Shown one piece after another: positions 19,958-49,266 of a DNA stretch of 49,266 bases. How positions within the stretch are numbered: position 1 is the first letter of the stretch; each line of letters begins with the position of its first letter. This DNA comes from a bacterium (GTDB lineage Bacteria; Cyanobacteriota; Vampirovibrionia; Gastranaerophilales; Gastranaerophilaceae), in assembly GCA_017536545.1 (NCBI GenBank), contig JAFXHF010000008.1:1-49266 (forward strand), read 5' to 3'. A model generated the notes under the pieces. The model ran no database searches and was not told where the DNA came from. It saw only the letters and a program-made list of their open reading frames with translations. The translations under genes and the position numbers were made by a program.

Positions 19958-19985
19958 TATTATTTTCCCACTACAAATTTATAAT

Positions 19986-20429
19986 CTATTTACCGATTTC
20001 TAGAGCTCTTTGAGCCATTGCTTTTGAAATATTCACAACCGCCAAGTTCGCCTCATATGCACGTTGTGCAACCAAAGCATCAGCAATATCAACCATAGCA
20101 TTTACGTTTGATGCTCTAATATAACCATTTTCATCAGCATCAGGGTGTCCTGGTTTATAAATTTTGTGGCCTAATGTTGGATCTTCTACAACACCTGAAA
20201 AATTAACCCCACCTTGTAAATAAGGTAAAGTTCCAACACCAAAAGCATCTTCTTTCATAGCATTCATCAAGCCGTGGAAAGAAACATCATCAACTGCAGT
20301 TAACACAGGGATTTTTCTAACATAATTAGGAGTATCCAAGTTTGCAATGTTTTTTGCGTGGATATCAATTCTCTTTCCGTGTACTTGAAGAGCTTTTGCA
20401 CCTATATCTATTGTATCCATTATACCCAT
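19986..20429 (-). CDS. flgC: flagellar basal-body rod protein FlgC
   Basis: A 147-residue proximal rod protein. The conserved N-terminal rod motif is IHAKNIANLDTPNYVRK, and the C-terminal motif is VNAMVDIADALVAQRAYEAN followed by ISKAMAQRAL, as expected for FlgC. It assembles in the periplasmic rod linking the MS ring to the hook. A possible ribosome-binding site (aaggcggtg) lies ahead of the ATG. It follows flgB by 21 bases. No fliE or fliF gene is in the window. Confidence 0.93.
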   Translation of the reverse strand: MGIMDTIDIGAKALQVHGKRIDIHAKNIANLDTPNYVRKIPVLTAVDDVSFHGLMNAMKEDAFGVGTLPYLQGGVNFSGVVEDPTLGHKIYKPGHPDADENGYIRASNVNAMVDIADALVAQRAYEANLAVVNISKAMAQRALEIGK

Positions 20430-20450
20430 TTGTGTTCACCGCCTTATTTA

Positions 20451-20798
20451 TTATTTACCAACGTTAATTACTGTTTTCATTTCTGTCACAATGTTTGTCA
20501 TTCTTCTTGTTGCCATAGAATATAAAATTGAGTTTTCCTGAATTTGTAAAAGCTCGTGTGCAGCATTTACAGGTTCTTCTGTTCTATCCATAGAAATCGC
20601 TGATGGTCCTAGTTTTTCAGAAAGTCTTGTTTCTAATGGACTATTCATTGTGCTTAAGTATTGTCCAAAATTAATATCTTGTCTGATATAACCTGGAGTG
20701 TTTACGTTAGCAACGTTTGAACCCAAAGCTCTTTGTCTTTGAGAAATCAAATCCATCATTAATGAAACTTTACCCATACTGTCTAGTGATGTATACAT
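20451..20798 (-). CDS. flgB: flagellar basal-body rod protein FlgB
   Basis: A 115-residue proximal rod protein, close to the usual FlgB length. It contains QRALGSNVANVNTPGYIRQD, the N-terminal rod-protein motif, and ends with a helical segment, ILYSMATRRMTNIVTEMKTV. It is placed directly before flgC as in most flagellar operons, and behind two FlgF/FlgG-type genes. Confidence 0.92.
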   Translation of the reverse strand: MYTSLDSMGKVSLMMDLISQRQRALGSNVANVNTPGYIRQDINFGQYLSTMNSPLETRLSEKLGPSAISMDRTEEPVNAAHELLQIQENSILYSMATRRMTNIVTEMKTVINVGK

Positions 20799-20823
20799 TG
20801 TATTAAAGACCTTTCGTTATTTA

Positions 20824-21540
20824 TTAAGCTTCTCTGATATTGATAGCTTTGTTATACATTGTGTCTGCAAGTTTTATCATCTGCATACTTGCAAGCATTG
20901 AAGCATTTAATCTCAACAAATCTGTTGCTGAACGATAAATACTTACGTTTGATTGTTCCAAGTTATTTTGTTTAATGCAGTCGTGATTTTTGACAAGTCT
21001 TGCTTCACCTGCTTCATCTGTTGGTTTCAATCTGTTCATATCAGTTGTTTCCATACCTGCAGGATTGTCAAATCTTACAAGAGGAATTGTACCAACTTTT
21101 CTTGCTTTAGCACCTCTTGCATCGTATGCCATAACATCACCATTCTGTTTTATCTCGAATTTGAAACAATTTGATGGAATTTGAATACCTTCGCCAACAA
21201 TCCAACCATCACGAGTTGTCAAATAGCCATCTTTACCCTGTCTAAATGCACCGTCTCTTGTGTATTGAACTTCGCCTGATGGTGAAACTACAGGAATATA
21301 TCCCGCTCCATCAATAGCAACATCATAAGGGTTACTTGTAATTCTGATAGAACCTTGTGTGTAATTTGTTCTAACAGCACCTGTCAAATAACCATCTTCT
21401 TTCAAGATTTGTTCAAAAGAAACATCTTTATAACCTGTTGTTTGGAAATTAGACAAGTTATTGGCAATTTGTCCAAATCTTTCGAATTGAACTAATGCGT
21501 TATTGGTACCTTTTGAAATTATTCCTTGTAGATTGTGCAT
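20824..21540 (-). CDS. flgG: flagellar FlgG/FlgF-type rod protein
   Basis: A 238-residue hook-basal body protein. It has an N-terminal rod motif, RFGQIANNLSNFQTTGYKDV, the central signature VAIDGAGYIPVVSPSGEVQYTRDGAF cut here to its main parts (AIDGAGYIP, YTRDGAF), and the C-terminal LEQSNVSIYRSATDLLRLNA. The length lies between FlgF and FlgG; the C-terminal LEQSNV motif favours FlgG, the distal rod protein. A ribosome-binding site (agagg) is present. It is the second gene of a four-gene set on this strand. Confidence 0.85.
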   Translation of the reverse strand: MHNLQGIISKGTNNALVQFERFGQIANNLSNFQTTGYKDVSFEQILKEDGYLTGAVRTNYTQGSIRITSNPYDVAIDGAGYIPVVSPSGEVQYTRDGAFRQGKDGYLTTRDGWIVGEGIQIPSNCFKFEIKQNGDVMAYDARGAKARKVGTIPLVRFDNPAGMETTDMNRLKPTDEAGEARLVKNHDCIKQNNLEQSNVSIYRSATDLLRLNASMLASMQMIKLADTMYNKAINIREA

Positions 21541-21558
21541 TTATAAAACCTCTTTTAA

Positions 21559-22251
21559 TTATTGACTTAATTGAGAAATTGTCTTACCTAAAACTGAGTT
21601 TTGAAGCATAAACATTTGTCTGTTGGCATCAAAATTTTTGATAACTGGCATTAGGGCCATAAATTCTGACTGCAAAGAAACGTTTGAATACTCGTTATAA
21701 CCTTGTTTGATATTTGGTTCCATTACAACCATTCCATTATGGTCAACTACCCCAATTTGACCGATTAAAGTTAACTTGTGAGTATCTGGATTGAACATTG
21801 TAATCTTACCTGCTGTATCGATTTTAATTTGTCTCAAATCCTGTGGAATGAATGGAAACTTGATTGGAACGCCTGCATTTGATAAAACTTCAGCGTTTTC
21901 TAATGTTAATAATGTTCCGTCTTTACCGATATGGAAACGACCATCACGAGAAAGTTTTATTCCATTTTCGGTTTGCGTTTGGAAATAACCTTTATTTGCA
22001 ATAGCGATATCTAACGATTTGTCTGAAACTGCAATACGGCCAACCTTATCGTCACGAGTTGTTGATAATGCGTGAACTCCTAAATATTCAGCAAAAGAAG
22101 TTACAACAGCTTCTTTTCTTTGATAACCAACTTTATCGAACCCGCCAATATTTTCGTTAGCAACAGCAATTATCTCGCTATCAAGGTGCATCGCCCTGAT
22201 TGATGCGGTCAAACCACTATCATTAAATTGTATACCACTATTTAAACGCAT
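21559..22251 (-). CDS. flgF: flagellar FlgF/FlgG-like rod protein
   Basis: The start is taken at the ATG at 22251, where agaggtag lies five bases upstream. The 230-residue product starts MRLNSGIQFNDSGLTASIRA. Rod-protein features are VANENIGGFDKVGYQRKEAV (a diverged form of the NxANxxTxGYK motif), SLDIAIANKGYFQTQTENG, LSRDGRFHIGKDG and GYNEYSNVSLQSEFMAL. The N-terminal motif is poorly conserved compared with the neighbour. It is probably the FlgF-like proximal rod protein and the first gene of the rod cluster. Assignment between FlgF and FlgG is uncertain. Confidence 0.75.
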   Translation of the reverse strand: MRLNSGIQFNDSGLTASIRAMHLDSEIIAVANENIGGFDKVGYQRKEAVVTSFAEYLGVHALSTTRDDKVGRIAVSDKSLDIAIANKGYFQTQTENGIKLSRDGRFHIGKDGTLLTLENAEVLSNAGVPIKFPFIPQDLRQIKIDTAGKITMFNPDTHKLTLIGQIGVVDHNGMVVMEPNIKQGYNEYSNVSLQSEFMALMPVIKNFDANRQMFMLQNSVLGKTISQLSQ

Positions 22252-22434
22252 AGTTCTACCTCTACATGTAATATTATTAATATTGTCGGACATTTGACGA
22301 AATTCCTCAACAAATTTGCGAAAAATCATCTATTTGTAGGACATTTTGCATGGTTATAATGATAATTTCAGATATGTCAATATAGAGATAAATATATTGA
22401 AAAACGACTTATTATTTTTATCTAACAAGTCGTT

Positions 22435-22776
22435 TTAGGAATTTCTTAAATCTATTAAGGTTGATATTGTATGTTTAACCAGTTTTAATTCTTTTGGTTT
22501 TAGTTTGTTAATATTGAATTTTATATTTTGAATAATTTTTTCTTCCTCACACGCATCATATACAAATAAATCATACACATTAACTTCAAGAACTTCTGCA
22601 AGTTTTAATAAATTTTTCAAAGAAGGAAAATGATTACCATTTTCCATTTTACAAAAATGTTGAGTATCAAGCCAGACTAATTCTGCAAGTTGTTCTTGTG
22701 TAAGATTTTTCTCTTTTCGAAGCTCTCTTATTCTTAATCCGAAAAGTTTTTTAAACTCTTTTTCGTCCATATCCAC
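22435..22776 (-). CDS. XRE-family transcriptional regulator, 113 aa
   Basis: The N-terminal helix-turn-helix is LRIRELRKEKNLTQEQLAEL followed by VWLDTQHFCKMENGNHFPSL (about residues 12-55). A helical C-terminal tail (about 70-113) could mediate dimerisation. It is divergent from the GT2-Stealth gene at 22919, and the 142-base gap holds palindromes, so it probably controls itself and that gene. A similar regulator at 48667 pairs with another glycosyltransferase. A ribosome-binding site (gaggtgg) precedes the ATG. Confidence 0.85.
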   Translation of the reverse strand: MDMDEKEFKKLFGLRIRELRKEKNLTQEQLAELVWLDTQHFCKMENGNHFPSLKNLLKLAEVLEVNVYDLFVYDACEEEKIIQNIKFNINKLKPKELKLVKHTISTLIDLRNS

Positions 22777-22862
22777 CTCTCATAATATTGTACTGTATTA
22801 AAGAGTATAGACTTAATGTTATTTATTGACATTATTTTATTGACTTTTATGTTGTTTCATGA

Positions 22863-22874
22863 CATGTATACATG
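22863..22874. promoter_or_regulatory. palindrome between XRE and GT2-Stealth genes
   Basis: A perfect 12-base palindrome, catgtatacatg, lies about 45 bases upstream of the glycosyltransferase start. Just upstream, ttattgac occurs twice within 20 bases (both could be -35 elements). The palindrome is a candidate operator for the divergent XRE regulator. Confidence 0.4.
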
Positions 22875-22918
22875 GTAAAAATTAACATATTAATTGGAAT
22901 TAAGAATAGGAAATATAA

Positions 22919-24892
22919 ATGCAAAACCCGAAAATATCAATAATCGTGCCTGTTTATAATGTAGAAAAATATTTACAAAAATGCTTGGATAGCTTAGTTA
23001 ACCAAACTTTGAAAGATATTGAAATTATTTGCATTAATGATGGCTCTACAGATAATTCTTTAGAGATATTACAAGAATATGCGAAAAAAGATAAAAGAAT
23101 TCAAATAATTAGCAAGAAAAATGAGGGTCAAGGAGTTGCTAGAAACATCGGAATTGAGCATGCCCAAGGAGAATATCTAGGCTTCGTTGATCCTGATGAC
23201 TGGGTTGAACTTGAAATGTATGAACAAATGTACAACCAAGCAAAGAATCTAAATTCAGAAATTGTAATTTGTGATTATAAAAAACACCAAGAAGGTACAA
23301 ATAAAAATTGGACACCTATAACCTTTGAATATGCAAAATCAGCAACACAAACAATAAAATTAGACGTTCCTTGCAATAAAAATATAGAAAAAAATCTTTT
23401 AATGGAGTCTCTATTTGTTTCTCCTTGTTATTCTTGGAATAAACTTGTAAAAAGGAATTTGATTTTAGAAAATGATATAAGATTTAGTAATATTAAATGT
23501 TATGAAGATGTTATTTTTATCCTAAAAAGTTTCATATATTCTAACAATTTTTCATATGTAAATAAATCCTTTTATCATTATAGAATTCGAAAAAATTCTA
23601 CAGTTAGAACTTATGAGAATCGCTATAAAGATTTTATTTACATAACTGAGGAAATAAAAACATTTTTAAAAAATCAAAAGCTATTACATACAATGAAGAA
23701 AAATTTAGAATATTTTTTCGTTATGGGAACTTATTGGCAATTTAAGTCCTTAAAAAAATTCTCTTCTAAATTTTTATTATTAAAATATATAATTCCAAAA
23801 CTTAAAACTTCAACAAACATAAAATTATTTTTAAAAATCTTTTCTTTATATTACTCTCCAATATTTTCAATTACCAACAACAATGAATACAAAATAATTA
23901 ATATTTTTGGTTTAAAAATAAAACATAATAGATTTAAAACCAAATTTCCAATTGATTTAGTATACTTATGGGTTGATGGAAATGATGTTGAATGGCAAAA
24001 AGAAAAACAAAAATGGCAAGAAAAATTAGGACTCAACCAAGATAATAAAGTCTTAAATGCTTGTAGGTTTATCGATAATGAAGAGTTAAAATATTCATTA
24101 CGTTCAGTTGCTAAAAACCTACCTTGGATAAATCACATTTATATTGTCACAAATGGACAAATCCCAAAATGGCTTGATACAAATCATCCTAAAATCACAA
24201 TAGTTAACCACAAAGAAATCATGCCTGCAGATGCCCTTCCAACATTTAACTCAGAAGCAATTGAAACTTGTATTCATAACATCTTTAATTTATCAGAGTG
24301 TTTTTTACTTTCTTGTGATGACTTTTTTGCATATAAAATGATACCGCCAACATATTTCTTCACTACTAACGGGAAACCTATAAATAGATTTGTCAAACAT
24401 CATCTAACAAAAATACAAATTGACGAGTGCTTATACTTCGCAAATAATGTTTACTCGGAACAATTGATTAAGAAAAAATACAATAAGCTTTTTAACTGCG
24501 AACTCCCACATACAATAACACCATACAGGATAAGTGATTATAAAAATACATACGAAAATTTTAGAAATGAATTTGTAAGAACTTGTTATTCGAAATTTAG
24601 AACATCTAATTGTACACAGCGAATAATGATCAATTTATATAGCTATATAATATCTAAATGTCCAGCTAGATTTATAAAAATTCATTCTAAAAAAAGAATA
24701 CTAGAAAATTTATATTTAACACTTAAACATCCAATAAAAATGGATAGAGAAATAAACAGACATTCAAAAAAACTAAAATTATTCTGTATAAATGATACTG
24801 AAAATACAAAACAAGAAGATAGAGAATTGTTGAAAAGTTATCTAGAATTTTTGTTTCCCCAAAAACAAAGTTGGGAACTACAACAGACTTAA
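22919..24892 (+). CDS. GT2 glycosyltransferase-Stealth phosphotransferase fusion
   Basis: Of 657 residues, the N-terminal about 230 are a GT-A family 2 glycosyltransferase: ISIIVPVYNVEKYL, ICINDGSTDNS, NEGQGVARNIGIEHAQGEY and the DxD-type VDPDDWVE. From about residue 341 the protein has Stealth signatures: IDLVYLWVDGNDVEW (CR1), then RFIDNEELKYSLRSVAKNLP, HIYIVTNGQIPKWL and LPTFNSEAIE (CR2), and FLLSCDDFFAY. Stealth proteins transfer hexose-1-phosphate units when making capsules or wall polymers. The fusion could add a sugar and then a sugar-phosphate to a surface polysaccharide. A ribosome-binding site (agga) precedes the ATG. The gene is very AT-rich, perhaps acquired. It ends in a clear terminator. 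Confidence 0.88.
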   Translation: MQNPKISIIVPVYNVEKYLQKCLDSLVNQTLKDIEIICINDGSTDNSLEILQEYAKKDKRIQIISKKNEGQGVARNIGIEHAQGEYLGFVDPDDWVELEMYEQMYNQAKNLNSEIVICDYKKHQEGTNKNWTPITFEYAKSATQTIKLDVPCNKNIEKNLLMESLFVSPCYSWNKLVKRNLILENDIRFSNIKCYEDVIFILKSFIYSNNFSYVNKSFYHYRIRKNSTVRTYENRYKDFIYITEEIKTFLKNQKLLHTMKKNLEYFFVMGTYWQFKSLKKFSSKFLLLKYIIPKLKTSTNIKLFLKIFSLYYSPIFSITNNNEYKIINIFGLKIKHNRFKTKFPIDLVYLWVDGNDVEWQKEKQKWQEKLGLNQDNKVLNACRFIDNEELKYSLRSVAKNLPWINHIYIVTNGQIPKWLDTNHPKITIVNHKEIMPADALPTFNSEAIETCIHNIFNLSECFLLSCDDFFAYKMIPPTYFFTTNGKPINRFVKHHLTKIQIDECLYFANNVYSEQLIKKKYNKLFNCELPHTITPYRISDYKNTYENFRNEFVRTCYSKFRTSNCTQRIMINLYSYIISKCPARFIKIHSKKRILENLYLTLKHPIKMDREINRHSKKLKLFCINDTENTKQEDRELLKSYLEFLFPQKQSWELQQT

Positions 24893-35356: not shown

Positions 35357-35428
35357 CCATAATTAAGGCAAAAGTAACATAAAATCAGCACAACTTTTAC
35401 ATTCCTTAATGTTTTTCTAAAAATAAAA

Positions 35429-36313
35429 TTATTTTGCGGTTTTAAGTACATATCTAGCAGCAGCACTTGCTGGTTCAACAATACCATCATGTATTCTTAT
35501 TGCATAAACATCTGTCATATGTTGTGCATCATTTTTAACAACACAATCATTTCCTGCTAATGAGTTTGAACCAGATGAACAACTTGCCTCTATATTAGGA
35601 AGATTTACTCCATTCACATCAACAACTCCAAAACAATCTGAAAGTGAAGTTGAAACGCCTGTTAAGTGGTGATCTTGAAGCACATTCCCTATTTCTAATG
35701 TACACGGAGTATTCCCAAGCGCTAATGGGAAAATAAATAAAGTACCATCTGCTAAAGAATACACGTGACCTGCGTTCAAACTACTGCCATCTGCAAGAAG
35801 TAATGGGGATGTATAAGTTATTGAATAATTTTGTTCTGAAGAACCTTTTCTAAGTTTCAAATTATTTGCCCTACCTAAATATGTAGCACCTGACAATGTT
35901 CCATTTAGAATTGCGCAGATTGTCATGACTTCTTCAGGATGTTCAGTTGCGGGACTCGAACCACATTTTGCGTTTATTCCAGCATAATCAAAATCATATT
36001 GAGCCTCACTCATTCGTGCGGCTTGAGAAAGAGTTGAAACTGCTTTTTTAAACACTGAACGATACTGTGAACTGCGAGTATTTGCAATTAAATTAGGAAT
36101 TGTCATTGCAGCAACAACACCTATTATACCAAGGGTAATCAATACTTCCGCTAGTGTAAAACCTCTTCTATTATTACTTTTATTTACCCCTGTCATTCCG
36201 GACTCCGATCCGGAATCTATTAATGCTAATTCTTTATTATTTATCAAATTGATAGATTCTGAATCAAGTTCAGAATGACTGTTAATGTTTTTAATATCTA
36301 ATAAATTTCTCAT
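35429..36313 (-). CDS. prepilin-like protein with repeat-derived leader
   Basis: A 294-residue prepilin. The cleavage site is G51, followed by FTLAEVLITLGIIGVVAAMT (Glu at +5), then a helical stem. The globular domain has cysteines (NAKCGSSP, TICAILNG, NTPCTLEIG, SDCFGVVD, EASCSSG, GNDCVV). The ATG at 36313 has a perfect aaggag site, so the leader is 51 residues, far longer than usual. Residues 13-21 (HSELDSESI) and 33-42 (DSGSESGMTG) are translations of two palindromic repeats at 36256-36276 and 36195-36216. An internal ATG at residue 40 would give a normal 12-residue leader. It is probably a pseudopilin or minor pilin. Confidence 0.85.
   Translation of the reverse strand: MRNLLDIKNINSHSELDSESINLINNKELALIDSGSESGMTGVNKSNNRRGFTLAEVLITLGIIGVVAAMTIPNLIANTRSSQYRSVFKKAVSTLSQAARMSEAQYDFDYAGINAKCGSSPATEHPEEVMTICAILNGTLSGATYLGRANNLKLRKGSSEQNYSITYTSPLLLADGSSLNAGHVYSLADGTLFIFPLALGNTPCTLEIGNVLQDHHLTGVSTSLSDCFGVVDVNGVNLPNIEASCSSGSNSLAGNDCVVKNDAQHMTDVYAIRIHDGIVEPASAAARYVLKTAK
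36195..36216. repeat. palindromic repeat inside the prepilin leader (1)
   Basis: Arms attccgga and tccggaat have a six-base centre and are preceded by tgtc. Translated on the minus strand it gives part of DSGSESGMTG. The form matches the repeats at 36256-36276 and 36470-36490. Confidence 0.7.
36256..36276. repeat. palindromic repeat inside the prepilin leader (2)
   Basis: Arms attctgaa and ttcagaat have a five-base centre. Translated on the minus strand it gives HSELDSES. It has the same arm and loop lengths as the intergenic copy at 36470-36490. Confidence 0.7.
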
Positions 36314-36381
36314 TTCTTTCTCCTTTATTTGTTTTTTATTTTTTGTTATTCTATCGAGCTAAAAAATTCAGCCTAAAAACA

Positions 36382-36453
36382 GTCAGACAATGCCTGACCT
36401 ACTTTCTTTGCAGGGGATTACTACGGACTCGCTACGCTCGTCCTCGTAATGAC
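36382..36453. repeat. interspersed repeat copy B plus hairpin
   Basis: 36382-36421 matches the repeat at 24969-25008. It runs into a further partly paired hairpin (36417-36450, attactacgga... with ...tcctcgtaat) containing ctcgctacgctcg. This is the first half of the repeat cluster filling the 479-base gap 36314-36792, in which I see no genuine gene. Confidence 0.6.
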
Positions 36454-36465
36454 AGTTAAACATTC

Positions 36466-36550
36466 TGTCATCCTGAACTCGATTCAGGATCTCATAATCA
36501 GACAACTCTATTTGTCGCATTATGAGATTCTGATTTTCATCAGAATGACA
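36466..36550. repeat. 85-base palindromic element
   Basis: The element starts tgtcatcctga and ends tcagaatgaca. It contains two nested palindromes, atcctgaa-ctcga-ttcaggat (36470-36490) and attctgat-tttc-atcagaat (36527-36546). Inner arms ctcataat (36491-36498) and attatgag (36519-36526) flank a short centre. The whole can fold as one long hairpin. Confidence 0.7.
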
Positions 36551-36558
36551 TCTATTCA

Positions 36559-36588
36559 CGTCATTGCGAGCAAATGCGAAGCAATCCA
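36559..36588. repeat. cgtcattgcgagc-type palindromic repeat
   Basis: The stretch cgtcattgcgag...gcgaagcaatcc has arms attgc and gcaat. It is of the widely dispersed short-repeat kind found in many bacterial genomes. Together with its neighbours it forms a cluster between two housekeeping genes. Confidence 0.55.
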
Positions 36589-36662
36589 GTTTAATACTTA
36601 GATGACAAAACAAATCAACAATATAGCCTAAAACAAGCCTCGTTACAAGCTCTAACGGGTTA

Positions 36663-36671
36663 CCCCCCCCC
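36663..36671. repeat. homopolymer of nine C
   Basis: Nine consecutive cytosines in AT-rich intergenic DNA, next to the repeat cluster. The tract may vary in length between cells or be a sequencing weak point. Confidence 0.7.
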
Positions 36672-36756
36672 GAAAATAAAGCTATGATTGAATTTTAGCA
36701 AATTTAATTTTTGGTAATTCATATTTTCATTATACACATTTTTTCAATTTATGCAA

Positions 36757-46252: not shown

Positions 46253-47494
46253 ATGGCTAATATATTAAAAGTTTTAAAAGGAACAAAGGACATTTTGCCA
46301 CAAGAAATTGAAATGTGGCATTTTATAGAACAAAAAGCAGACGAAGTTTTTTCAAAATATGGATTTAAAGAAATTAGAACTCCTATTATTGAAGTTACAG
46401 AACTTTTTTCTCGTGGTGTTGGCGATACAACTGACATCGTAAACAAAGAAATGTACACTTTTGAAAAAAGTGATCGTTCAATTACTCTAAGACCAGAAAA
46501 TACTGCTGGTGTTGTTCGTTCCTATATCGAAAATGGTATGTCTAGACTTTCTGCCCCTGTAAAACTTTGGTATAAAGGGCCTATGTTTAGATATGAAAGA
46601 CCTCAAGCTGGTCGCCAAAGACAATTCCACCAAGTTGGTGTTGAAATGTTTGGTATAAAACAGGCAACTGCTGATGCTGAAGTTATTTTGATGGCAGTTA
46701 ATTATTTAAAAGCTCTTGGTCTTAATGATTTGGAAGTTGAATTAAACTCTCTAGGTTGTCCAACTTGTCGTGATGAGTTTAAAAATAGACTTAAAGAAGT
46801 TTTAAAACCTTATTTTGAAGAACTTTGCGAAGATTGTCAAAACAGATATGAAAAAAATCCTCTAAGACTTTTGGATTGCAAAGTAGATTCTTGTAAAAAG
46901 ATTTTTGAAAAACCTGAAGTTCAGGAAGTTATAAATTCTGATTTTATTTGTGATGAATGTGCAGAACACTATACAGAATTGAAATTATATTTAGATAGAA
47001 TGCAAGTTAAATATAATGAAAATAAACTTCTTGTAAGAGGTTTGGATTACTATAACAGAACAGTTTTTGAAATCAAATCAAACAATTTAGGTTCACAAAA
47101 TGCTGTTTGTGGTGGTGGAAGATATGATGCTTTAGTTGGTCAACTTGGTGGAGAACCAACTCCAGCTGTTGGTTTTGCAATGGGTATGGAAAGATTAATT
47201 TCACTTTTACCAGAAAAAGAATCTAAAAAACTAGACGGTTACATTGTTTCAAACTTCCCAACAGATGCATTTATTCTTGCGGAAGAGTTAAGAAAAGATG
47301 GGTTAAATGTAGAGTTTGATTTGTCTAATAAAAAATTCACAAAACAACTTGAAAAAGCAGCAAAAGTTGCAAAATATGCATTTATTTTAGGTGAAGAAGA
47401 AATTTTGAAACACCAAGTTTCTATCAAAAACCTTGAAACAGGCCAACAAATTAAAGCCGATAGAGGCTTTGCACTAAAAATGCTTGATTTTTAG
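46253..47494 (+). CDS. hisS: histidyl-tRNA synthetase
   Basis: A 413-residue class II synthetase. Motif 1 is RTPIIEVTELFSRG, motif 2 is YKGPMFRYERPQAGRQRQFH, the histidine-specific loop is GLDYYNRTVFE, and motif 3 is AVGFAMGMERLI. Paired cysteines (CPTCRDEF, CEDCQNR, CKVDSCKK, CDECAEHY) occur in the insertion domain, as in related bacterial HisRS. The C-terminal anticodon-binding domain spans about 325-413. It charges tRNA-His. The predicted start of transcription coincides with the ATG, so translation is probably leaderless. Confidence 0.97.
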   Translation: MANILKVLKGTKDILPQEIEMWHFIEQKADEVFSKYGFKEIRTPIIEVTELFSRGVGDTTDIVNKEMYTFEKSDRSITLRPENTAGVVRSYIENGMSRLSAPVKLWYKGPMFRYERPQAGRQRQFHQVGVEMFGIKQATADAEVILMAVNYLKALGLNDLEVELNSLGCPTCRDEFKNRLKEVLKPYFEELCEDCQNRYEKNPLRLLDCKVDSCKKIFEKPEVQEVINSDFICDECAEHYTELKLYLDRMQVKYNENKLLVRGLDYYNRTVFEIKSNNLGSQNAVCGGGRYDALVGQLGGEPTPAVGFAMGMERLISLLPEKESKKLDGYIVSNFPTDAFILAEELRKDGLNVEFDLSNKKFTKQLEKAAKVAKYAFILGEEEILKHQVSIKNLETGQQIKADRGFALKMLDF

Positions 47495-47507
47495 AATGGT
47501 CTTTGTT

Positions 47508-48506
47508 TTATAAATATTTCCATCTCAAATTACGTCTTATTTTCTTGGATGGAATTATATTTAGAATCAATGCAATTATTTTATTAACAAACCAAACAAG
47601 TTTTATGTTTCTTGTTTTAATAAATAACCTTAACCTTAAAGGTAAATTTTTGTAAGAACCACCCTCACTTGTTGAAATATAAGGACGAATAAACTCATCA
47701 TATATTTCAAAAAATTTATTTGTAAGGTTTTCTATTTGATCTTTTGAATACCCAATAACCAACATACGTCCCAACGGTTCTTTATTTAAAAATCTTGCAA
47801 AATAAAAAGATCTTGTTTTATAAAGTTCAGTATCTTTATAAAACTCTCCTAGATGGTCAAGCCATTTTTTTATTTGGTTATATAATTTATCAGTATTATT
47901 TCTGTTCTTTATATGATCACCTGCTACATGAACACGATAATTATATTTACTAATTGTATTTAAACTATATCCATTTCCTTTTAATACAGAAGTTAATTTA
48001 TGAACAAATATGCCATCTTCCGCAGGTTGAATTCCTTCTGGAAATCTAATCCATTTATTTACATCTAAAACAGATTTTCTAATAAACAATGCCCATGCTG
48101 TATAACAATACAAATGTTTTAAATATTTTTTATCAAAAGTATCACTTACTAAAACAAAATTACTTTTTTCATTTTGAGCTATGTTATAACAAGTTTCATA
48201 AAAACATTCGTCAATAGTGTCATCTGAATCCAAAAAGTGAACAAATTCTCCATTTGCATATGACAATCCTAAATTTCTAGCAACAGAAACTCCTTCATTT
48301 TCTTTATCAATATACTTAATACTTTTTGGGTATTTTTTTGCATAATCTAAACAAATAGAACCTGAATTATCTGTACTTCCATCATTTACAATAATAATTT
48401 CTATATTATCTAATGTTTGGTTTAAAACAGAATCAATACATTCTGCAATATATTTCTCTACATTATAAACAGGTACTATTACTGAAACCTTTACAATCTT
48501 TTCCAT
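47508..48506 (-). CDS. GT2 family glycosyltransferase, 332 aa
   Basis: A family 2 glycosyltransferase: VSVIVPVYNVEKYI, IIIVNDGSTDNSGSICLDYA, NEGVSVARNLGLSYANGEFV and the DxD-like LDSDDTID. A C-terminal region rich in basic and aromatic residues may sit on the membrane. It transfers a sugar to a surface polysaccharide or glycoprotein; donor and acceptor cannot be told. The N-terminal half is similar to the GT2 domain at 22919. It is divergent from an XRE regulator (48667), and an O-acyltransferase lies just beyond. Confidence 0.88.
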   Translation of the reverse strand: MEKIVKVSVIVPVYNVEKYIAECIDSVLNQTLDNIEIIIVNDGSTDNSGSICLDYAKKYPKSIKYIDKENEGVSVARNLGLSYANGEFVHFLDSDDTIDECFYETCYNIAQNEKSNFVLVSDTFDKKYLKHLYCYTAWALFIRKSVLDVNKWIRFPEGIQPAEDGIFVHKLTSVLKGNGYSLNTISKYNYRVHVAGDHIKNRNNTDKLYNQIKKWLDHLGEFYKDTELYKTRSFYFARFLNKEPLGRMLVIGYSKDQIENLTNKFFEIYDEFIRPYISTSEGGSYKNLPLRLRLFIKTRNIKLVWFVNKIIALILNIIPSKKIRRNLRWKYL

Positions 48507-48541
48507 AATAAAATTTTATTCTATATAAAAAGTAATTAAAT

Positions 48542-48555
48542 TAGACAATAGTCTA
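48542..48555. promoter_or_regulatory. candidate operator: tagac-aata-gtcta
   Basis: A five-base-arm inverted repeat lies 36 bases upstream of the GT2 start at 48506 in the divergent gap to the XRE gene. Confidence 0.3.
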
Positions 48556-48565
48556 TATTTTACAC

Positions 48566-48586
48566 AGATTATATTACTTATAATCT
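48566..48586. promoter_or_regulatory. candidate operator: 8-base inverted repeat
   Basis: Arms agattata and tataatct are separated by ttact. It is central in the 160-base gap between the divergent GT2 and XRE genes, a natural place for an autoregulatory XRE operator. Confidence 0.4.
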
Positions 48587-48666
48587 AGAGATTTGTCAAT
48601 ATTTATTACCTAATATATGGTTTGATTTTCTTATACAATATTTTAAACTCCTAAAAAGGAGGCATT

Positions 48667-48984
48667 ATGACTGTTAAACAATTGTTAGGACTCCGAATTA
48701 AGGAATTAAGAACAAAAATAAAATTAACACAAGCTCAACTAGCAGAAAAAGTTGGGATTGATCCAAAACACCAAAGTTGTATTGAAAATGGAAAAAACTT
48801 TCCATCTGCTGACTTATTAGATAAATATGCTTTAGTGTTTAATATAGAAGCTTGTGAACTTTTTGAAATTTCTCACAACAAACCAAAAGAGCATATCAAA
48901 AAATATTTGATAAATGTTATAAATAATTGTAATGAATTTGATTTAAGAATTATTTATAGAATAGTTAATTCAATAATAAAATAA
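48667..48984 (+). CDS. XRE-family transcriptional regulator, 105 aa
   Basis: A helix-turn-helix at about residues 8-50 reads LRIKELRTKIKLTQAQLAEK, VGIDPKHQSCIENGKNFPSA. A helical C-terminal tail resembles that of the regulator at 22435. The two proteins share the same length class, the same HTH position and the same pairing with a divergent glycosyltransferase. A strong ribosome-binding site (aaggagg) precedes the ATG. Its stop lies one base from the stop of the convergent acyltransferase gene. Confidence 0.85.
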   Translation: MTVKQLLGLRIKELRTKIKLTQAQLAEKVGIDPKHQSCIENGKNFPSADLLDKYALVFNIEACELFEISHNKPKEHIKKYLINVINNCNEFDLRIIYRIVNSIIK

Positions 48985-48985
48985 T

Positions 48986-49266
48986 TTAAACTTTAGCAAA
49001 TTTCTTCTCTGCTTTTAATTGATTATATTTTTCTATATCTCTGTATTTTAAAACAGCTGCAGGATTTCCTCCTACGACTGCACAAGGTGGAACGTCTTTT
49101 GTTACAACAGAACCCATTGCAATAACTGCACCTTCACCAATAGTAACTCCAGGTGCTATACAAACTCTTGCACCAATCCAAACATTATCCTCTATTGTTA
49201 CAGGTTTTAACTTAGAATTATAATCAAATGGCAATGTTTCTGGACTATAATAATTATGATTGCTTG
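48986..49266 (-). CDS. 5'-truncated hexapeptide-repeat O-acyltransferase
   Basis: The reading frame is open through the window end; TTG at 49234 is internal and the frame before it reads [20 protein letters not shown]. The left-handed beta-helix repeats [20 protein letters not shown] and [19 protein letters not shown], and the ending [13 protein letters not shown], are typical of maltose/galactoside O-acetyltransferase-like (WbbJ/CapG) enzymes. It adds an acetyl or similar group to a sugar, probably of the same surface polysaccharide as the neighbouring GT2. Confidence 0.88.

Follow-up and report, generated by a model that had tools for sequence, protein, structure and literature searches.

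The stretch of DNA analyzed here (hereafter the window) comprises 49,266 nucleotides of contig JAFXHF010000008.1 (GenBank assembly GCA_017536545.1), and near its end a GT2 glycosyltransferase gene and a small gene for an XRE regulator diverge from a common gap on the 3' side of hisS (cassette 2; Table 1). An initial annotation of the window had described this pair as diverging around a gap with two inverted repeats, and both the coordinates and the repeats proved exact. The XRE protein of this unit (P0001) scores above the Pfam cut-offs for HTH_19 (41.5 bits; cut-off 30.2) and HTH_3 (38 bits; cut-off 23), and the two GT2 proteins of the window belong to Glycos_transf_2 (123.3 and 142.8 bits; cut-off 23.3). 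An earlier unit of the same design (cassette 1) likewise has the layout given in the initial annotation; its transferase, however, is not a plain GT2 but a GT2-Stealth fusion: the matches listed to the Stealth regions are CR1 (2.4e-12), CR2 (6.7e-40) and CR4 (4.3e-9), CR3 not being among them, and place the protein in the Stealth family. The window was compared with its sister species, the water-deer cecum genome RGIG8499 (G011; 95% identity in hisS), and with 'Candidatus Gastranaerophilales bacterium Zag_111' (G001; about 85% identity in hisS); these identities place the window in a gut member of the Gastranaerophilales that is uncultured.

Table 1. Genes, predicted promoters and candidate operators of the two cassettes in the window.
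Feature	Position	Strand	Remarks
XRE regulator of cassette 1 (P0002)	22435-22776	-	113 aa with GTG start; an ATG follows two codons later
Intergenic region of cassette 1	22777-22918		conserved elements in 8 genomes
Candidate operator of cassette 1	22817-22831		TGTTATTTATTGACA
Candidate operator of cassette 1	22850-22864		TGTTGTTTCATGACA; 33 bp from the preceding copy
GT2-Stealth fusion glycosyltransferase	22919-24892	+	cargo of cassette 1
hisS	46253-47494	+
GT2 glycosyltransferase	47508-48506	-	cargo of cassette 2; PF00535, E 1.2e-35
Divergent intergenic region of cassette 2	48507-48666		160 bp; from sequence
Inverted repeat 1	48542-48555		TAGACAATAGTCTA; kept in RGIG8499, lost in Zag_111
Inverted repeat 2	48566-48586		includes left candidate operator copy TATTACTTATAATCT (48572-48586); overlaps GT2 -10 and spacer
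Predicted GT2 promoter	48571-48599	-	-35 TTGACA (48594-48599), 17 nt, -10 TAATAT (48571-48576)
Candidate XRE promoter	48593-48621	+	TTGTCA-17-TATGGT; 9/12 matches
Right candidate operator copy	48604-48618		TATTACCTAATATAT; 32 bp from left copy
XRE ribosome-binding site	48656-48662	+	AAGGAGG; from sequence
XRE (HTH_19/HTH_3) regulator of cassette 2 (P0001)	48667-48984	+	105 aa; HTH_19 E 1.3e-10, HTH_3 E 1.7e-9
Hexapeptide-repeat acyltransferase, C-terminal part	48986-49264	-	on XRE 3' side; gene cut by window end

The two inverted repeats of the cassette 2 gap read TAGAC-AATA-GTCTA and AGATTATA-TTACT-TATAATCT. As evidence by themselves they were rejected, their scores of 10.7 and 12.4 being at chance level for this AT-rich gap, where the best palindrome of dinucleotide shuffles reaches 10.6 +/- 1.8; across the family (102 gaps) best palindromes score slightly higher than those of shuffles (11.7 versus 10.6). 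The second repeat is imperfect in RGIG8499, and its palindrome is lost in Zag_111 despite an identical XRE recognition helix. The predicted GT2 promoter has 10 of 12 matches and the -35/-10 layout found across the XRE family, sigma-70-like matches being no commoner in this AT-rich gap than in its shuffles. The XRE gene might possess a promoter of its own that shares -35 DNA with the GT2 promoter. Tested alone, the pair of candidate operators in this gap is not significant (p = 0.20), and the right copy is put forward as a candidate on the strength of the family-wide pattern described below.

The two window XREs, whose helix-turn-helix domains and tails the initial annotation had called similar, show 49% identity over 63 aa; the tails are alignable, since a genome search aligns the two proteins over about 100 aa at 37% identity. 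The idea of a duplicated cassette stands in so far as the unit is repeated both in this genome and in its relatives; a recent duplication of the window pair is not required. The two XREs occupy different parts of the tree and their candidate operators differ, and the two cassettes need not stem from a recent duplication; a single clade of both lineages is not rejected (AU p = 0.47), so the two may yet have a common origin.

The XRE family was detected in 190 of the 192 genomes sampled from the order Gastranaerophilales (E 1e-12) and in nearly all of 46 genomes of the genus, with up to 79-83 hits in one of them (G005). It is rare outside the order, where a draw across the phylum at E 1e-15 returned few and weak hits (11 genomes; best E about 1e-19). 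Searches of the genome that carries the window recovered three long members, of which two are those of the window and the third has a DUF4011 protein as its partner, and besides these six weaker HTH proteins, several of which face prepilins. Divergence from the neighboring gene was seen in 112 of the 116 genus members with a readable 5' neighbor, as against an even split (192:186) for ORFs of at least 100 aa in 60 of the same loci, a control which counts the XRE pairs themselves. The genus sample consists of chosen regions and of the sequences that matched P0001 and P0002 best and is therefore not random. An earlier count that included weaker HTH proteins gave 118 divergent and four same-strand neighbors, with five at a contig edge; order-wide all 29 readable loci were divergent (of 30 sampled, a few of them from the genus), and 34 of 41 were so in a mixed further set of loci. 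The median gap measured 140-153 bp in every class of partner.

Many gaps of the family carry a predicted promoter facing the partner gene. The sequence TTTGTCAA was present in 32 of 93 non-redundant gaps, where 0.5 would be expected; read on the partner strand it provides a TTGACA located 60-90 bp before the partner start and followed after 17 nt by a -10-like element. An exact TTGACA with this arrangement was found in about half of the intergenic regions, the other half having no exact -35; TGTCA-type elements around the TTGACA box are conserved in the eight genomes of the P0002-like clade. The left flank of the -35 is closer to the right flank of its own gap than to those of other gaps (13.7 versus 11.3; permutation p = 0.0005, 34 non-redundant gaps, all spacings tested). 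Spacings of 30, 32, 33, and 42 bp stand out in these genus data, from which they were also picked, while off-phase spacings give p = 0.87; an independent set from other genera, with only seven anchored regions, gave p = 0.18. In the window cassettes one candidate copy lies over the -10 and spacer of the partner promoter and the other over the likely XRE promoter, which predicts repression of both genes. That the XRE instead activates the divergent gene appears rather unlikely. The divergent layout would suit either role, and the structural matches of the XRE include the C proteins of restriction-modification systems, PlcR, and ComR, all of which are XRE proteins that activate; the partner promoters, however, look near-consensus with an ideal 17-nt spacing, which needs no activator, and the candidate sites overlap the -10 and spacer rather than lying solely just upstream of the -35.

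An AlphaFold2 model of the 105-aa XRE (pLDDT 93.6) consists of a five-helix HTH and a two-helix tail, with no cleavage domain. Its best curated match is the RstR family of phage repressors (NF041951), which is covered over nearly the whole model at scores below the cut-off of 80 bits (51.0 bits for P0001, 59.1 for P0002). This match, together with a few partners that are a type IIG restriction enzyme, a uracil-DNA glycosylase or the helicase-like DUF4011 protein, would accommodate a phage-responsive module, in which a phage-type repressor, lifted when a phage infects or DNA is damaged, governs receptors (pili and glycans) and some defense-like genes. We hold this to be unlikely, given that few partners match the defense library, that no phage genes were recognized beside the cassettes read, and that the protein has no domain for cleavage; relatives of the XRE in phages amounted to weak matches to ordinary phage repressors in 15 records.

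By Pfam, 64 of 104 partners in the genus carry the N_methyl prepilin motif, followed by GT2 (10), DUF6613 (9), and Stealth, uracil-DNA glycosylase, and DUF1796 (two each), with single cases of LicD, GT8, Caps_synth, polysaccharide pyruvyl transferase, an epimerase, and Chlamydia-PMP-like, DUF4011, and Eco57I-type proteins. Prepilin-like genes are thus the majority, glycan genes make up about one in six, and a few partners are DNA-processing or restriction genes.

In 13 of 70 partners with the prepilin motif an in-frame insert lies between two copies of the motif (e.g., FGFTLAE-GATHVNLLQTNAKA-GFTLAE); partner ORFs of this insert or repeat type occur at loci L027, L037, L043, L059, L129, L132, L005, L054, L086, and others. 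Other prepilin partners have N-terminal stretches that resemble translated dispersed repeats. A prepilin ORF of the window itself (35429-36313, minus strand) begins with a 50-residue stretch of this appearance (HSELDSESINLINN...), and the ORF overlaps a gap in collinearity with RGIG8499 at 35426-36756.

The initial annotation had seen in the two cassettes a duplicated switch by which this XRE subfamily toggles surface glycosylation genes individually, perhaps for antigen variation in a host. Both long XREs of the window do face glycosyltransferases, the P0002-like clade has glycan cargo throughout its eight genomes (support 99), and on the XRE tree the partner classes cluster, with 15 changes against 31.5 in shuffles (69 members labeled prepilin, 17 glycan, and 17 other). 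A census of paralogues and their neighbors, however, found XRE paralogues with no glycosyltransferase beside them, an outcome that the initial annotation had itself named as refuting the idea, since the third close paralogue of the same genome faces the DUF4011 protein and most of those in the genus face prepilin-like genes; with glycan partners in such a minority the unit is not a glycosylation-specific switch. Glycan-partnered XREs as one clade are rejected (AU p = 8.5e-8), and only two of the nine GT2 genes of this genome face such an XRE. (The 1.9-Mb genome, G000, has 39 prepilin-like genes, few of which have an XRE alongside.) Antigen variation within a host is likewise unsupported: no notable tandem repeats that might signal phase variation were found at 47400-49266, and no recombinase was recognized among the cassette-flanking genes read. 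A duplicated glycosylation switch is therefore too narrow a description and, as an explanation, very doubtful; the unit belongs to a large set that is specific to the lineage and faces mostly prepilins. What stands of the modular divergent unit is the pairing of a regulator with a surface gene, its repetition, and the promoter and operator-like sites in the gap, without the restriction to glycosylation.

Comparison with RGIG8499 showed that in both window cassettes the DNA-binding domain and the gap have been kept while the cargo differs. At cassette 1 the two genomes are collinear from 19979 to 22905 (88.9% identity); collinearity stops 13 bp before the start of the GT2-Stealth gene and is regained at 24883, which leaves 10 bases to the end of the stop codon of that gene. 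In RGIG8499 this XRE (94%) and its gap are retained, but the gene opposite is LicD, the first of a five-gene operon (LicD, aminotransferase, cytidylyltransferase, hexapeptide transferase, and a second LicD). At cassette 2, hisS and the DNA preceding it are 93.6% identical and the gap is largely conserved (partly so in Zag_111), whereas identity in the XRE gene declines from 93-89% over its first 135 nt to 60-64% at its end, and in the GT2 gene from 83% at the start to 52-72% over the remainder. RGIG8499 has an extra GT32-type gene here, and the acyltransferase on the other side is replaced by GT8; the RGIG8499 locus was read from two overlapping contig ends, as the contigs break inside the XRE gene. 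Other pairs with more than 70% XRE identity also retained the XRE and gap, the body of the partner being diverged or unrelated. The variation observed is turnover of cargo between species.

The 3' side of hisS is occupied in many genomes of the genus by GT2, GT8, GT32 or LicD, with or without an XRE (loci L136-L165 and L244-L259), and Zag_111 carries an XRE-GT2 pair at this site in the opposite orientation. In two genomes (L143 in G038 and L144 in G033) the hisS site carries LicD-like remnants and an XRE start fused to LicD-like sequence, possibly representing decayed cassettes. Counted by eye, 16 plus-strand XRE hits lie less than 1000 bp from a contig start, which is the partner side, against one minus-strand hit (the 3' side); repeated partner 5' ends or strain-level variants of the cargo may have broken the assemblies there. 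An incidental link, with an XRE that is only autoregulatory and pairs that persist through joint exchange as compact surface-gene cassettes, would agree with the presence of cassettes at hot spots of exchange, among them the hisS 3' side, and with contig ends on the partner side, but is quite improbable as the cargo is replaced while XRE and gap remain, and is thus not simply co-transferred, and as it is the partner toward which the promoter and the conserved spacing are directed.

The best explanation, and one that we consider probably correct, is that each unit is a 'socket', a local repressor and promoter whose cargo can be exchanged; in the window cassettes that cargo consists of glycan-modifying enzymes. 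Repression and a one-to-one specificity of XRE and gap are what we infer from the sequences. The likeness to RstR over nearly the full length, though below the family cut-off, also speaks for a repressor. An XRE dimer would bind both repeats, 30-33 or 42 bp apart (three or four helical turns), perhaps cooperatively, and once bound would shut the strong promoter of the partner and its own weaker promoter, release being brought about by some signal or by a shortage of repressor. Each XRE would be expected to act on its own gap only, and new cargo arriving in a socket would therefore gain ready-made control. A more speculative extension, rather unlikely as it stands, is that across the order dozens of mutually insulated sockets form expression sites for exchangeable pilins, glycan enzymes, and some defense genes, with recombination swapping cargo under unbroken control and possibly one or a few sites on per cell.

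Local divergent repressors are common; what is unusual here is that a family specific to one lineage reaches about 80 copies in a 2-Mb genome, that most copies are directed at a single surface gene, and that cargo is exchanged beneath a repressor-promoter unit which stays in place. If the socket reading is true, it would offer a gut bacterium a route to surface genes that are already under control, and the set of XREs and gaps would constitute naturally diversified repressor-operator pairs for tests of specificity. The order is mostly uncultured and its surface biology hardly described. The literature searched, which left out most subscription papers, contained no description of XREs paired with prepilin or glycan genes, and in the searched portions of their text two Melainabacteria genome papers mention neither pilins, such regulators, nor glycosyltransferases.

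Among solved structures, those nearest to the XRE model are SinR, the C proteins of restriction-modification systems, and 3IVP, the last with an alignment that covers the full length. The XREs described here share the five-helix HTH fold with small XRE repressors, SinR among them (PDB 1B0N, 3QQ6, 3ZKC). SinR, however, acts alone as a global regulator of biofilms and has an antagonist, SinI, whereas here there are many paralogues, each with one gene beside it. The protein in 3IVP comes from Clostridioides difficile and is putatively transposon-related. C.Esp1396I is, according to the title of its structure entry, a tetramer on a 35-bp operator; this and the other C proteins (C.AhdI, C.BclI) are the closest folds to the HTH half of the XRE (Z 11-13), but are without the two-helix tail and have restriction genes as their targets. 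In the filamentous phages, rstR is divergent from rstA and its operators are allele-specific. RstR, the repressor of the rstA promoter, acts as a dimer of dimers (PMC8402870). The window XREs resemble RstR of the filamentous phages such as CTX phage in their size (about 105-110 aa) and in the near full-model match; unlike RstR, which faces a phage replication gene, they are chromosomal, are present in many copies per genome, and face surface genes.
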